From NCBI RefSeq assembly GCF_017875315.1, contig NZ_JAGGMM010000001.1, positions 186,001 to 250,000 of the forward strand: 64,000 nt of DNA. Direction: 5' to 3'. The position numbers and the translations under genes were made by a program. The notes beneath the pieces were generated by a model. The model did no database searches, had not been told where the DNA came from, and was given only the letters and a program-made list of their open reading frames with translations. The number at the start of each line of letters is the position of its first letter. The stretch's first letter is position 1. This document shows positions 4,888 through 36,345 of the stretch, piece after piece. The DNA comes from Methanomicrobium sp. W14 (GTDB lineage: Archaea > Halobacteriota > Methanomicrobia > Methanomicrobiales > Methanomicrobiaceae).

Positions 4888-5931
4888 ATGTTAAAAGATT
4901 TATTGGGAAAACTTTCCGATGCACATGGCCTCTCAAGCTATGAAGGAAATATACGGGATATAATAAAAGAAGAGCTTGCGGGATATGTTGACGAAATGTA
5001 CACCGACAGGATGGGAAACCTTATTACGGTCAAAAAAGGTGACGACTTTAAGTTCATGGTTGCGTCGCATATGGACGAAATAGGATTTATGGTCCAGTAC
5101 ATCGACGAAAAGGGTTTTATTAAATTCGTTCCGATAGGCGGATGGTTCACTCCGACGGCATATACCCAGAGAGTGGTTCTTCACGGCAAAAAAGGAGATA
5201 TTACCGGGGTAATCGGTGCGAAGCCGCCTCATGTGATGTCGGCCGAGGACCGCAAAAAGGAACTTAAGATTGAGGATATGTTCATCGACATCGGTGCCGT
5301 CAGCGACAAGGACGCAGCGGACCTCGGAATAGAGATAGGGACTCCGATTACTATCGACCGTGAATATAAAGAGCTTGCAAACGGCAGGATAACCGGAAAG
5401 GCAATGGACAACCGTGTCGGCGTCGCTTTGCAGATTGAAGTTTTAAAACAGGTAAAATCACCTCATACAATATACGGTGTATTCACAGTTCAGGAGGAGC
5501 TTGGGCTTAAAGGGGCAAAAGTCAGTGCATTTGCAATAAACCCGGACTGCGCAATAGCAACGGATGTTACAATACCCGGCGATCACCCCGGGATTACGAA
5601 GAGTGAGGCTTCTGTTGAGATGGGCAAAGGGCCTGTTCTTGGTCTTGTCAGCGCCGCCGGAAGGGGTCTTATGGCGGACTGGAACGTATCCGACTGGCTC
5701 AGAAAAGCAGGTGACAAAAATAAAATACCATACCAGCTTGAAGTTGGAGACGGCGGAAACACCGATGCAACGATTATCCATCTCGTAAGGGAAGGTATAC
5801 CAAGTATACCCTTCTCAATAGCGTCACGTTATATCCACTCTCCTGTAGAAGTAGTCGACTTAAAGGACGTGGAAAACGGAATAAAGCTTCTTGTCGAAGC
5901 CCTTAAGACAAAACCCAAATTCAAAAATTAA
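4888..5931 (+). CDS. M42-family (TET-type) metalloaminopeptidase
   Basis: A di-metal aminopeptidase of the glutamyl/TET class that trims peptides released by the proteasome; archaeal TETs form large dodecamers in the cytoplasm. The metal-site motifs are all visible: VASHMDEIGFMV (His and Asp), MDNRVG (bridging Asp), QEELGLKGAK (catalytic Glu pair), ATDVT (Asp), and a C-terminal HSPVEVV with the last His. The 347-residue length is normal. It begins two bases after the aminotransferase, which suggests coupled amino acid salvage. Confidence 0.9.
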   Translation: MLKDLLGKLSDAHGLSSYEGNIRDIIKEELAGYVDEMYTDRMGNLITVKKGDDFKFMVASHMDEIGFMVQYIDEKGFIKFVPIGGWFTPTAYTQRVVLHGKKGDITGVIGAKPPHVMSAEDRKKELKIEDMFIDIGAVSDKDAADLGIEIGTPITIDREYKELANGRITGKAMDNRVGVALQIEVLKQVKSPHTIYGVFTVQEELGLKGAKVSAFAINPDCAIATDVTIPGDHPGITKSEASVEMGKGPVLGLVSAAGRGLMADWNVSDWLRKAGDKNKIPYQLEVGDGGNTDATIIHLVREGIPSIPFSIASRYIHSPVEVVDLKDVENGIKLLVEALKTKPKFKN

Positions 5932-5996
5932 TATTTTTTATCTTTTTTATTCTTTCAAAAGAATCAAATATCAGATGTTTCTATAAGTCAGTTATT

Positions 5997-6491
5997 ATGA
6001 GGCGGTTATATCTTACTTTTATGGTGATTTTTTTTGCAGCTTTTGTGTTTTCTGCAGGCTGTACCGGTTCGGACGGTCAGTCCGGTCAGACGCAGACTCC
6101 TACAGAGACCGCACAGGCTACGACAGAAGCCACCGAAACTCAGGCTCTGCCTTCTGATATGGTGCCCGGACCGACGGAACAGCCTTCTTCTGATTACACT
6201 GTCGCAATACAGGTCAACAAGGACCAGGTCTACGGGACTATAACAGTCTATTTCATGGGCGGTTCCGGGCAGAATTTTGTCTCTACCATCACAGTTGACG
6301 TTTATTATCCTGACGGAGCAAGCGAGAGCAAAAATCTAAGTTACGAGAACATAGGAGACAGCGTGGAGTTTCCGGCAAACAAGTACGAGCAGGACAGGGT
6401 AAAAGTGACAGCTGTGTATCCCGGCACAATCGGAACGTATGTAGTCTATGACCAGCTTGTCCCGCAGGACCCGCCCCTGGTGCCGGAATGA
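5997..6491 (+). CDS. Predicted lipoprotein
   Basis: A 164-residue exported protein. It starts with a basic and hydrophobic signal peptide (MRRLYLTFMVIFFAAFVF) followed by the lipobox SAGC, so it should be lipid-anchored at the outer face of the membrane. A Thr/Glu/Gln-rich linker (about residues 25-65) precedes a beta-rich domain (DYTVAIQVNKDQVYGTITVY). That domain resembles others found in small secreted Methanomicrobiales proteins but I cannot name it. It stands alone between the M42 gene and argG; no function can be assigned. Confidence 0.75.
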   Translation: MRRLYLTFMVIFFAAFVFSAGCTGSDGQSGQTQTPTETAQATTEATETQALPSDMVPGPTEQPSSDYTVAIQVNKDQVYGTITVYFMGGSGQNFVSTITVDVYYPDGASESKNLSYENIGDSVEFPANKYEQDRVKVTAVYPGTIGTYVVYDQLVPQDPPLVPE

Positions 6492-31460: not shown

Positions 31461-31643
31461 ATTTATGCTTGTTTCGGGCCGGAATTTTTTATTTTTTAAT
31501 GCATGTATTAAAGCTTCTTTTTTCAAACCTTAAATTAAGGTCAGGAAAAACAGAAATATTAAATATCTACTTTTATTTTATCTTCGTTATCTTTTTTAGT
31601 ACGGTTAACCATAAAAACTAATGGATAAAGGGGTGACAATCTT

Positions 31644-32486
31644 ACGACTGTAATTACTTTTGCGCATCATAAAGGAGGAACAGGCAAAACGACCTCCTGC
31701 CTTGCCATAGCAGGCTGTCTGGCGGGTGCAGGCGAAAAGGTCCTTGTAATTGACTGTGATCCGCAGGCAAACGCCACAACAGGCCTTGGTATTGACTCTG
31801 AAGACCAGTCAAAAAATATATATGATGTCTTTATGAATGTCTTTGATGGTTTTCCTGATGTATCTATAAAAGACGTTATAGTAGAGACAAAATCCGGAAT
31901 TCATCTTGTGCCGTCCTCTCTTGATCTTGTCGGAGTAGAACCGTATCTTTATGGTATAAACGAGAGGGCAGTTGTTTTAAAAGATGCCCTGAAGCCTGTT
32001 ATTAATGAATACAGATACATTTTGATAGATACTCCTCCAAGTATGGGGCAGTTTGTCATAAACGGAATTATTGCAGCCGACAGAATTGTCTTAACTCTTG
32101 ACAGCAGCGTCTTTGCCCGCAAAGGAATGGACAGTTTGGAAAGTATATTCGAAGATATAAAAGAGAATACAGGTAAAAACAAAACGCCTGATATGGCGGT
32201 TATAACACGCGCAGGTGTGCTCTTCGAAAGAAAATCCCCCATGGATGAACTGAAGATAATATTCAGACAGCTATTGTTCTCCGAAACCCCTGGCAGAGAA
32301 GAGATGATAAGGCAGGATGAACTTGAAAAGGATATTATGAAAAAAATAAAGGAAGTGTTCTCTGTTCCGTATGACTCTTCTGTATATTCAGCTCAGAAAG
32401 AGGGTACGCCTGTCACAGTCCTTTACCCTGACAGTCCTGCTTCTTTGAAATACAGGCAGATTGCGGAAATTATCAGGAGATGGTGA
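31644..32486 (+). CDS. ParA/Soj-type ATPase of the chemosensory locus (ACG start)
   Basis: A 280-residue ParA-family ATPase. The deviant Walker A motif KGGTGKTTS is at residues 10-18, followed by VLVIDCDPQANATTGLG and the Walker B region YILIDTPPSMG; it should form DNA-bound dimers that position cargo. The frame is closed by TAA at 31626 and holds no ATG, GTG or TTG before codon 64, which is already past the Walker A and DxDPQ motifs. The only sensible start is ACG 31644 (MTVITFAHHKGGTGK), seven bases after SD GGGGTGA. It ends seven bases before a soluble chemoreceptor, suggesting that receptor is the cargo, as with PpfA and TlpT in Rhodobacter. Confidence 0.85.
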   Translation, partial: TTVITFAHHKGGTGKTTSCLAIAGCLAGAGEKVLVIDCDPQANATTGLGIDSEDQSKNIYDVFMNVFDGFPDVSIKDVIVETKSGIHLVPSSLDLVGVEPYLYGINERAVVLKDALKPVINEYRYILIDTPPSMGQFVINGIIAADRIVLTLDSSVFARKGMDSLESIFEDIKENTGKNKTPDMAVITRAGVLFERKSPMDELKIIFRQLLFSETPGREEMIRQDELEKDIMKKIKEVFSVPYDSSVYSAQKEGTPVTVLYPDSPASLKYRQIAEIIRRW

Positions 32487-32492
32487 TATAAT

Positions 32493-35414
32493 ATGCCGGA
32501 AGACAAAATTTCCCAGAAAAGGCCCGGAAGGAAGGCTTTGTTTGCAGGAGCATATGCCCCGAAGGAGGCTTCCCCCATGCCGAAAAATAGTATGGTTGAG
32601 GATTTCATTGCCAGCACGACGATTTCCCTTAGAGATTTCACCTCGGGAAAAGATGACATCAGGATAGATGAAGACGAAGATAATGCAGGCCTTAAAAATT
32701 TTGCAATAGAAATCAATAAAATTCTTGAAAAATCCGGTTCTGTCCTGGATAACGGAAATGATGATGAAATAAGATCTTTGAAATCGAAATTACAGTCTCT
32801 TGAAGATACAAACAAAAATCTCTCTGAAAGTCTCAAAAATACCGAATCTTTGAATTCGGCTTCTGATGATTATGAAGAAGAGATAAAATCCCTGAAATCG
32901 AAATTACAGTCTCTTGAAGATGCAAACAAAGCTCTCTCTGATAATCTTAAAGAGGCTGAGTCCTTAAGTTCAGTCTTAAAAGATTATGAAATTAAGGTGG
33001 AGTCGCTGAAATCAAAGGTAAATTCTTTGAATGATTCAAATGAGAATATGTCAGCGGCTTTTAATAAAGTAGAGAGTGAATTTGAAGATTATAAAAAGTC
33101 TGCAATGAAAAAGCGGGACGAAGAGGTAGACCTTGCATTAAAAAGTGCACGGGAAGAAACAGAGAAATCCGTTATATTGCACAATGCCGAAAAAGAAAGG
33201 CTTAATTCTGTAATCTCCGAGAAGGATTCTCTGAATGAAAACCTGAATAGAGAACTTTCCTTAAGGGAAGAAAAAATTCTTGATTACCAGTCTGCTGTTT
33301 CAGGATATAAGGAGATTATAAAAAATATCGAGACTGAAATTTCGGCAAAGAACGAGTCTTTTGATGCCCTTCAAAAGGAGTTCGATGCTTTCAAAATAAA
33401 GTACGAAGAGGAATCTGATACCAGAAAATCAGAGGAAAATGATCTCATCCTTGAAAAGGAGAGACTGATTTCTCATTTTAAACAGAGAGCAGAAGACCTG
33501 GAGTCCGCCTGTGCAAAGGAGCGTGAGGAAAAGGAAAGATATCTCCGGGAGGCAGACCTCCTTCGTCTTCGTTGCGGGATTATTGTTCAGGAGAACCCGC
33601 TGCCTGCACTTCTAACAGATGCTTCATTCAGAATACTGGAGGCAAACGGACCTTTTGAAAAAATGAGCGGAATTTCTGCATCCAAAATTAAAAATACCAG
33701 TCTAAAAAGCTTCGAAACAGTTGAAATTAAAGGTGAAGGGCCTTCAGAATCTTTAAAGACAAAAAAACGTAGTTATTCAGAGGCAAAAATAAGATTTCCG
33801 TCAGGTATGCGTTACCTGAAACAGTACGGCATTCCTGTTGCAGGTGAAAATAACACTATAGAAAATATCCTTGTTGTTTACGTTGACGTGACAAAGGAAC
33901 GCGAAGAATCGGAAAAAATACAAAAACAGATCTCCGAGATTTCATCCCTTAAAAAACGTTCTGAAACAATAATACAGGAAAATCCCATGCCTATGCTTTT
34001 CCTTGACGGCAGTTTCAGAGTCCTTGTTGCAAACAGGGCTTTTGGGGAGCTTGCAGGAACCGGTCTTTCCGGGATAAAAGGCAAAAATATCTCAGACCTT
34101 GATCTGGGCAGGGAAAGCAGAAATACTTTGGAAAGCGCTTTATCGTCAAAAGAGAGGGCATTCAGTGAAATAACAGCAGGTTTGTCCGACGGGATAATAC
34201 TTGAACAGTACGCAATTCCAATAATGGATGACAAAGGAGGAGTCTCAAATATTCTTGTTGTCTTCAATGAAGTCACAAAACTTCGCAGGAAAGAGTCAGA
34301 TCTCAGTAATTTAATAAATAAATCCCAAAATGAAGCGAAACTTCTTGAAAAAAGCGTTGAATCGGTGACTAAGAGTATGGCGCTTCTTTCCGGGGGTGAC
34401 CTTTCCGTGCAGGCGGAAATTGCTGAAGATGATCCTTTAAAAATGTTAAAGGAGAAGTTCAACGACTCAGTATCTTCAGTAAGAAGCGTTATAGAAGACA
34501 TCTCAGGAAAGACCGGCCGTATCGAAAAAACCGCCGGAGAGCTGCACGAGAATAATGAAGACATAGCAGGAGCGACAGAAAAGCTTGCGACTAACGCCTG
34601 CGAGTCTTCAGAGTTTTCCAAAAATCTCACCGACAAGTTCGGCGAGATAGGCAACAGGATCTCGGACCTCTCCGCTTCTATAGAGGAGATATCGAGTACG
34701 GCGCAGGAAGTTATGAAGAAGACTCAGCTTTCAGCATCCGATGGCAAAAAAGCAGCTGTTGTCGGAAAAGAGGCTTATCTCAAGATGGAGTCTGTCGGTG
34801 AAATCTCAAAAAGAAGCGTTGAAGAGATAAATTCACTTAATGACGAACTTTACAGGATAAATGATATTGTCAAGCTTATCAGCGGCATTGCCGAGCAGAC
34901 CAACATGCTTGCGTTAAACGCTGCAATTGAAGCGGCAAGGGCAGGAGAGCACGGAAGGGGCTTTTCCGTTGTCGCAGGAGAGGTAAAGGAGCTTGCAGGT
35001 GAGTCCAAGAAGGCGACTGTCGAGATACAGGAGTTAATAGAAAGCATTCAAAAAAACAGCGAGAAAACCGCAGGCTCAATGAAACGTGTCAATGAAGAGA
35101 TAAAGACCGGAATTGAAAGTACAAATTCTGCAATTGTGGCACTTAACAAGATTGCCGGGGAAATTGAAATCGCATCAAACGGAATGACCGAGATATCAAA
35201 GGCGACGGACACGCAGGCAAGGGACACCAACACCTTCATGCAGTACGTTGAAGCGGCGAACGAGATGACAAAGGAGAATATAAAGAGAATCGAAAATGTT
35301 GCGGCCCTTGCTGAAGAGATCTCGGCGATTTCAGGTGAAGTAGGAGGAATCTCCAACGAAATGCATGACATGTCGGTCGACCTGAAAAAATCAATTGGAA
35401 AGTTTGGGGTATAA
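32493..35414 (+). CDS. Soluble chemoreceptor with coiled coil and two PAS domains
   Basis: A 973-residue methyl-accepting protein with no membrane segment, so it should form a cytoplasmic array. Order: basic N-terminal tail with [13 protein letters not shown] (about residues 9-21); a long coiled coil (about 70-355) with a 38-residue repeat (units start [11 protein letters not shown]); PAS 1 (about 362-470) and PAS 2 (about 490-605), each opening with xIxQENPxPxL; a HAMP-like segment (about 613-666); and the signalling hairpin whose tip is about residues 798-835 ([19 protein letters not shown]). The N-terminal tail resembles ParA-stimulating tails of ParB. No CheR-tethering pentapeptide is seen at the C-terminus. 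Confidence 0.9.
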
Positions 35415-35547
35415 AACCAGTAATTTTAAAATAACTCCTGAATTTTTATTTTTTTAACTGTTGCTCCAAAGCAAAAAGGATAAGTCGTTGTGATGGCTGA
35501 TTCATATATACCATAAATATAAGAAAACATTTCATGGCAGTTTTATT

Positions 35548-36345
35548 ATGATAGATTCGGAATTTCAGACGTTAAAAAGAACTATAGAAAAACTTCTGGG
35601 AATACAGTGCGGGTGTTATAAAGAGGATTATATTAAAAGACGCGTTCTGTCCAGAATGAGGATCACCGGCAAAGAGAAGTACAGGGAATACAACTCCCTG
35701 ATTCTCTCGGACAAATCCGAACAGGAGCTTTTAAGAAACGCTCTTACTATAAACGTTACAAAATTCTACAGGGACAAAGAAGTTTTTGATTTAATAAAAT
35801 CTGATATATTCCCCGGGATAATCCGCAGTAAGGGGCGTATGCGCATATGGAGTGCAGGGTGTGCAACGGGAGAGGAGCCTTATACGCTTGCTCTGATAAT
35901 CCATGATATTACACGGCTTAATCCTGATGTGTCAGTGACAATTTTTGCAACAGACCTTGACAGGGAAGCCCTTAAAAAGGCCAAGGAGGGAATCTATGAT
36001 AAGAGATCCCTTGAGAATTTAAACGAAAACCAGGTGAGAAGGCATTTTACCGAGACTGAAGACGGGAAATATGAAGTGAAACCGCATTTAAAAGAGATGG
36101 TGAGATTTTCCCAGCATGATCTCATGAGCGGCAAGCCGGTAACAAACTACCTTGATATGATTTTGTGCAGAAACGTCACAATCTACTTTACTGAAGAGCA
36201 GAAAAACGACCTTGCACGGATGTTTCACCCTGCCCTCGTATCAAAAGGGTTCTATGTAATGGGGAAAACCGAATTTATGAGTCGCGAGGTCGAGGAGCTT
36301 TACGACCCGTATAACACTCTTCAGAAAATTTATACAAAAAGATAG
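35548..36345 (+). CDS. cheR: Chemoreceptor methyltransferase CheR
   Basis: Methylates glutamates of chemoreceptors with SAM for adaptation. The 265-residue protein has the N-terminal helical domain (DYIKRRVLSRMRITG), the INVTKFYRD motif, the SAM-binding IWSAGCATGEEPYTLAL, FATDLDREALKKAKEG, and DMILCRNVTIYFTEEQ. It follows the soluble receptor by 133 bases that include a TATA-like ATATAAG region, so it may have its own promoter. CheA, CheW, CheB and CheY are not in the window. Confidence 0.95.
   Translation: MIDSEFQTLKRTIEKLLGIQCGCYKEDYIKRRVLSRMRITGKEKYREYNSLILSDKSEQELLRNALTINVTKFYRDKEVFDLIKSDIFPGIIRSKGRMRIWSAGCATGEEPYTLALIIHDITRLNPDVSVTIFATDLDREALKKAKEGIYDKRSLENLNENQVRRHFTETEDGKYEVKPHLKEMVRFSQHDLMSGKPVTNYLDMILCRNVTIYFTEEQKNDLARMFHPALVSKGFYVMGKTEFMSREVEELYDPYNTLQKIYTKR

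Follow-up and report, generated by a model that had tools for sequence, protein, structure and literature searches.

A ParA-type ATPase encoded beside a ParB-like tail on chemotaxis array proteins: a probable archaeal array-positioning system

Introduction

How archaea place large protein arrays and pass them on is, to our knowledge, almost unknown, with the MinD proteins of Haloferax as the main case. In Haloferax volcanii, MinD4 and MinD2, which are ATPases of the ParA/MinD superfamily, affect the position of chemosensory arrays (PMC11588486). In Rhodobacter sphaeroides, the gene for the ParA-type ATPase PpfA lies next to that for the soluble receptor TlpT, the N-terminus of which is the partner of the ATPase (PMC3964821, PMC5706961), and in Vibrio the protein ParP consists of an N-terminal part that interacts with ParC, linked to a CheW-like domain (PMC5706961). 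The locus analysed here, from Methanomicrobium sp. W14 (order Methanomicrobiales; genome size 2.54 Mb), comprises a ParA-type ATPase gene, the gene of a soluble chemoreceptor (methyl-accepting chemotaxis protein, MCP) with a short ParB-like N-terminal tail, and a CheR methyltransferase gene. It lies within a stretch of 64,000 nucleotides (G000:C1:186001-250000), hereafter the window, to which feature coordinates refer.

The locus is probably an archaeal system of the PpfA/TlpT kind, positioning a cytoplasmic chemosensory array. The original prediction for this DNA had proposed such a version, in which the receptor tail activates ParA; the lack of ParB, the conserved tail and the conserved adjacency described below support the pairing of tail and ATPase, from which we infer the activation. 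These results suggest that archaea distribute internal chemotaxis arrays as bacteria distribute plasmids and chromosomes. No prior report of an archaeal ParA-receptor module was found in the literature searched, with subscription journals mostly outside its coverage. ParA-driven array positioning in bacteria and the effects of ParA/MinD proteins in Haloferax were already known, and the new elements are that the module is archaeal, order-wide and equipped with an explicit, portable ParB-like label. As a compact two-gene module, consisting of a 12-residue peptide and one ATPase, it makes archaeal array placement directly testable.

Results

The ParA gene lies just upstream of the receptor gene, as predicted, with a gap of six bases and not seven (last base of the ParA stop, 32486; first base of the receptor ATG, 32493). 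The KGGTGKTTS motif of the proposed ATPase was borne out, present as HHKGGTGKTTS in a protein that matches Pfam AAA_31, as were the downstream position of CheR and the lack of a membrane segment in the receptor, for which the highest 19-residue Kyte-Doolittle mean is 1.05. CheA (C1:864415) and all nine CheW-domain matches lie outside the window, in line with the statement that it holds neither, and CheY was not searched. The features of the locus are:

31632..31636, + strand: Shine-Dalgarno-like GGTGA (sequence and spacing table; Shine-Dalgarno-like sites are also kept in relatives)
31644..32486, + strand: ParA-type ATPase gene, 280 residues (Pfam AAA_31, E 2.5e-48; PDB relatives Soj/ParA; AlphaFold2 fold; start-codon comparison)
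31671..31694, + strand: deviant Walker A KGGTGKTT, ParA residues 10-17 (alignment of 36 homologues)
32238..32276, + strand: amphipathic helix PMDELKIIFRQLL in an insert, ParA residues 199-211 (AlphaFold2 model, hydrophobic moments, bacterial ParA alignment)
32493..35414, + strand: soluble chemoreceptor (MCP), 973 residues, ATG start (Pfam PAS and MCPsignal)
32520..32552, + strand: ParB-like N-terminal tail, receptor residues 10-20, a putative ParA-binding and ParA-activating peptide (positional conservation, genome-wide pattern search, L080 fusion model)
33963..34289, + strand: second PAS domain, receptor residues about 491-599 (Pfam)
34797..35267, + strand: MCP signalling domain, receptor residues 769-925 (Pfam PF00015, 2.2e-41)
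35548..36345, + strand: CheR methyltransferase (Pfam PF01739, 7.4e-57), which also follows the partner in most relatives

The receptor contains two PAS stretches and the C-terminal MCP signalling domain, and its residues 1-360 match coiled-coil families, as judged by profile matches and not by direct coiled-coil scoring. At least 12 receptor domains are present in the genome, and the tail pattern is on only one receptor, that of the window. The same genome also has, on another contig (G000:C2:484000-500000, L069), four consecutive soluble tailless receptors of 742-865 residues with adjoining CheW genes, and it encodes a single CheA.

In a family search, ParA orthologues were separated from paralogues as full-length matches above 185 bits against matches below 50 bits. 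The orthologue is present in 25 of 28 family genomes searched and in 104 of 199 sampled genomes of the order, spanning 22 of 38 genera, as well as in one more distant family of the phylum and in Methanophagales, which are anaerobic methane oxidisers; named relatives among the matches listed are Methanoculleus, Methanoregula, Methanolinea and Methanospirillum species and Methanophagales. It is absent from many complete relatives. Neighbourhoods were read in more than 80 loci, and in every locus where the contig extends far enough the tailed partner comes directly after ParA, barring one genus group and one other species, in which it is the second or third gene downstream (L096, L111, L112, L117 and L122, and also L099, where it is a CheW protein). 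Where no tail was visible, the locus either reaches a contig border or has its tailed protein at this greater distance. The order of ParA with a receptor or CheW gene and CheR is kept across the 22 genera, Methanophagales and the distant family, on contigs of up to 3.9 Mb. Adjacency in relatives, one of the checks named by the original prediction, is found as adjacency or near-adjacency in every readable locus of these groups.

Some neighbourhoods hold additional genes. Some genomes of family f1 (L064, L065) have a duplicated or second ParA-tail-receptor unit, and one of the copies in L064 is interrupted by a TGA within ParA and has a fragmented receptor frame. In several genera, not including that of the window, the opposite strand upstream of ParA carries a divergent gene for a small GTPase-like protein (e.g. 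MDRSRLKIVIFGAYNAGKSTFIRAIDP; L056-L060, L063, L066-L068, L026), for which a polarity role like that of bacterial MglA is conceivable.

The partner of ParA carries the peptide [RK]-P-G-R-K-A-L-F-x-G in roughly its first 30 residues, and a partner with the broader N-terminal pattern G-R-[KRQM]-[AGVT]-[LV]-[FL] is found downstream of ParA in all loci with enough contig to show it. Variants include KPGRKALFTGP (Methanoculleus-like), KPGRMALFAAP, METIGRKALFEA, KPGRKALFEDV (Methanophagales) and VRRAGRKVLFDAP (in a more distant genome). The tails of G135 and G157 are the variants GRKTLF and GRKAVF, and absence of the tail from these two genomes was accordingly rejected. Information content is mostly 2.9-4.3 bits in the tail columns and mostly below 1.1 in the next forty residues; because the sequences were aligned on the motif, these values describe a conservation island and not an independent motif discovery. 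Within the N-terminal region, conservation among orthologues is highest in the tail, which answers a second named check. Its description as basic and ParB-like stands, with its extent corrected to a core of P-G-R-K-A-L-F, and its location on a receptor holds for the window and fails in many Methanoregulaceae-like genomes, in which the carrier is a PAS-CheW adaptor.

The strict pattern PGR[KR]ALFxG, searched across the 199 genomes with the reversed pattern as a control, is present in 68 of the 104 genomes with ParA and in none of the 95 without it, and the reversed pattern has no match in the 199 genomes. Every strict match lies downstream of ParA except one chance match (G093:C1:471317), and those remaining ParA-containing genomes that were read have tail variants outside the strict pattern or a contig border. 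In the window genome the strict pattern occurs once, in the window receptor; this single match and the null reversed control indicate that the tail pattern is more than chance. ParA and CheA are found together in 96 of the 199 genomes, ParA without CheA in 8, CheA without ParA in 35 and neither in 60. The 35 genomes with CheA and without ParA also lack the tail pattern, indicating that the tail tracks ParA and not chemotaxis as such.

Among untruncated tail carriers, 44 have an MCP domain and 15 a CheW domain, never both and never neither, so ParA is accompanied by the tail as part of an array-core protein. The CheW carriers have the arrangement tail-PAS-CheW and come from ten genera, all in family f5, and in some loci the tail is on the CheW adaptor next to ParA and the receptor is tailless. 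Carrier receptors are between about 350 and 1400 residues long and have a sensory part of PAS, poly-HAMP or none. The ParA tree calls for two changes of carrier, or possibly one. This distribution suggests that evolution handles the tail as an address label that can be moved between array-core proteins.

The ATPase belongs to the ParA/Soj side of its superfamily and not to MinD. The deviant Walker A with its signature lysine and the ParA-type motif 2 (DPQ.NAT) are invariant or nearly so across the 36 aligned homologues, the AlphaFold2 model has Soj and M. xanthus ParA as its predicted nearest folds (best Foldseek matches 9a6n, 6iub, 8jmj and 8ray), and the protein scores 83.8 bits against the archaeal MinD family TIGR01969, far under the cut-off of 201.75. 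A plasmid-type ParB encoded elsewhere, which the original prediction had named as evidence against itself, was looked for and not found in the G000 genome, where the ParB_N domain (PF02195) has no match (10 of 14 controls positive). Alignment with bacterial ParA proteins shows that the chromosomal C-terminal sequence IPR[NS]V[RK]LSEAPSHGKP is replaced by one of the type VP[YF]S..VYEAQ..G.PISH, and no MinD-type C-terminal membrane helix was seen by eye. A variable insert at ParA residues about 188-230 (window 32190-32330) holds a short amphipathic helix, which resembles a MinD membrane helix by eye, is absent from chromosomal ParA proteins in the alignment, is present in most homologues of the window ParA, and is predicted as helical in both of the AlphaFold2 fusion models described below (window and L080).

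ParB proteins encoded beside bacterial ParA start with LGRGLSALL, LGRGLDALI or LGKGLSALI (consensus LGRGLxALI), and the tail sequence GRKALF resembles this activator motif, a likeness of motif that is not proof of homology. In a model of the M. xanthus proteins, the ParB motif (L11, R13, L15, L18, I19) forms a short helix at the edge of the ParA dimer, with R13 near ParA Y81, E82, D110 and E117 (PMC12462528). Mapped through the alignment with structure 8ray_B, which from its numbering appears to be M. xanthus ParA-D60A, the pocket for the ParB arginine corresponds to Y60, D61, D94 and Y101 of the window ParA, the first three of which are conserved in the family, and the hydrophobic site L150/L152 corresponds to the family-specific M134/Q136. 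Two ParA-tail fusions were folded with AlphaFold2, the ParA stop (TGA in the window) being read as glycine purely as a device. In the L080 fusion, which comes from a relative and has a longer linker, exactly PGRKALFT is predicted as helical, as a block with a predicted local distance difference test (pLDDT) value of 72 and flanks mostly below 50, giving modest support to docking of the tail on ParA as a short helix. Another archaeal ParA, that of L150, precedes a 122-residue protein (5668-6036) with GGKKGKGIDALLPSAKK at the start; this protein is a small adaptor that resembles ParB and has the motif in its classical form.

The ParA reading frame of the window begins behind a stop codon and contains no ATG, GTG or TTG codon ahead of the P-loop, so that its start is probably the ACG at 31644-31646, 7 nt after GGTGA. 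The aligned start codon in 71 ParA sequences of the order is ATT in 40, ATC in 12, ATA in 11, ATG in 7 and ACG in the window alone. In 35 of the 71 there is no in-frame ATG, GTG or TTG upstream of the P-loop, looking back as far as the preceding stop or over 120 nt, and a non-canonical start seems to be required in those 35; in other genomes, such as Methanoculleus-like ones, a GTG three codons upstream of the aligned start may be used. The downstream partner starts with ATG in 59 of 61 cases, under a start choice that favoured ATG. The apparent non-canonical start of ParA, with a Shine-Dalgarno-like site before it, is conserved across the order (window 31632-31646; L045-L122). This conserved non-canonical start offers a rare archaeal case for studying start-codon choice as dose control.

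Discussion

In the proposed mechanism, dimers of ParA with ATP would bind to a surface inside the cell, for which the nucleoid is the likeliest candidate, and the receptor would join the array through its C-terminal signalling tip, leaving many flexible basic N-terminal tails to protrude from the array as a multivalent ParB-like activator. A tail that takes the form of a short helix and docks on the dimer would trigger ATP hydrolysis and release, and repeated binding and release along a ParA gradient could space, anchor or partition the array, giving one to each daughter.

Several results weigh against this mechanism. The C-terminal arginine and lysine positions of nucleoid-binding chromosomal ParA are not kept in the window ParA family, the fourth pocket residue E117 is changed to Y101, and L152 is changed to Q136. 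In the window fusion, with a linker of about 10 residues, the tail is disordered except for ALF (pLDDT at least 50), perhaps because the linker is short, and both fusion models are monomeric, so that the docking site is not visible in them. Of the genomes of the order, the 35 with CheA and without ParA indicate that chemotaxis needs no ParA, and the 8 with ParA and no visible CheA include some that are near complete. Given the kinship among the genomes sampled, the co-occurrence counts and Fisher values are not phylogenetically independent.

Given the lost C-terminal basic residues and the inserted helix, ParA may or may not bind the nucleoid, and membrane binding is the main rival. The ATPase, ParA by descent, might run on the cytoplasmic membrane in the manner of MinD through its inserted amphipathic helix, a membrane gradient positioning the tail-bearing arrays. 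Most homologues have this short amphipathic, often basic helix (GGLALFLKRIFSP, GFFSSFFHRLFPSG, DIFSRLRDLFYKKPEP), helical in both models; this, the missing basic residues of chromosomal ParA, and the positioning of chemosensory arrays by Haloferax MinD4 and MinD2 (PMC11588486) agree with such a variant. However, it is unlikely, as the insert is short in Methanophagales, poorly conserved, and neutral or acidic in some species, the nearest folds are Soj/ParA and not MinD, and the score of 83.8 is far below the minD_arch cut-off of 201.75. A hybrid, in which an ATPase that is ParA by descent works with a ParB-like peptide, the inserted helix replaces the DNA-binding residues and directs the protein to the membrane, and the dose is held low by an AUU, AUC, AUA or ACG start while the array protein has AUG, is likewise a rather improbable account.

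Two further explanations place the tail or the ATPase outside array positioning by ParA. FrzCD of Myxococcus, a soluble receptor, binds the nucleoid via a basic N-terminal tail (PMC5716589), and the tail described here, which is also short and basic, might itself bind DNA and tether the receptor to the nucleoid, with ParA as an independent neighbour. FrzCD tails keep charge and not sequence (PMC5716589), whereas the archaeal tail is an exact P-G-R-K-A-L-F-x-G with nearly invariant L and F, never occurs without ParA, and sits on CheW adaptors beside ParA where the receptor is tailless, making a direct tether very improbable. The Soj/ParA-like fold would also suit an ATPase that partitions DNA, of a chromosome or an integrated plasmid, and merely lies beside chemotaxis genes, but the chemotaxis gene order is kept across 22 genera, Methanophagales and one distant family, on chromosomal contigs of up to 3.9 Mb, ParA is absent from many complete relatives, and the genome has no ParB. 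A plain DNA-partition ParA, the least credible of these accounts, was rejected on the lack of ParB and the conserved chemotaxis neighbours.

The array-positioning system favoured here shares with PpfA/TlpT a ParA gene that adjoins the gene of a soluble chemoreceptor, a likeness of arrangement and not one drawn from comparison with the PpfA and TlpT sequences. The archaeal system differs in its explicit, near-invariant tail motif, in having either a receptor or CheW as the carrier, and in a ParA with an apparent non-canonical start and an inserted helix. With ParABS it has in common the ParA fold, as modelled, the deviant Walker A and a partner N-terminus, G-[RK]-x-A-L-[FIL], like LGRGLxALI of ParB (PMC12462528); it differs in the lack of a ParB CTPase, in a cargo of chemotaxis proteins and in the loss of the C-terminal DNA-binding basic residues. 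Haloferax MinD4 and MinD2 differ from the window ATPase, which falls on the ParA/Soj side, has its cargo encoded alongside and has a partner peptide that resembles ParB.

Related bacterial loci (L163-L165) encode a ParA with a YxxQxxGxPISH-type C-terminus beside CheW and CheR genes in a cyanobacterium, a poly-HAMP receptor in Omnitrophica and a HAMP protein in Trichodesmium. Apart from being bacterial, these loci differ in their divergent tails (QAAKKALF in Omnitrophica, NSGLQVFF in Trichodesmium), and together with the archaeal module they suggest a wider chemotaxis-ParA group. As in ParC/ParP, the tail is on a protein with a C-terminal CheW domain in ten genera of relatives (15 carriers), whereas PAS lies between tail and CheW in these relatives, no polar landmark is known, and the carrier in the window is an MCP receptor. 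The carrier swap brings two bacterial designs, PpfA/TlpT and ParC/ParP, together within one clade.

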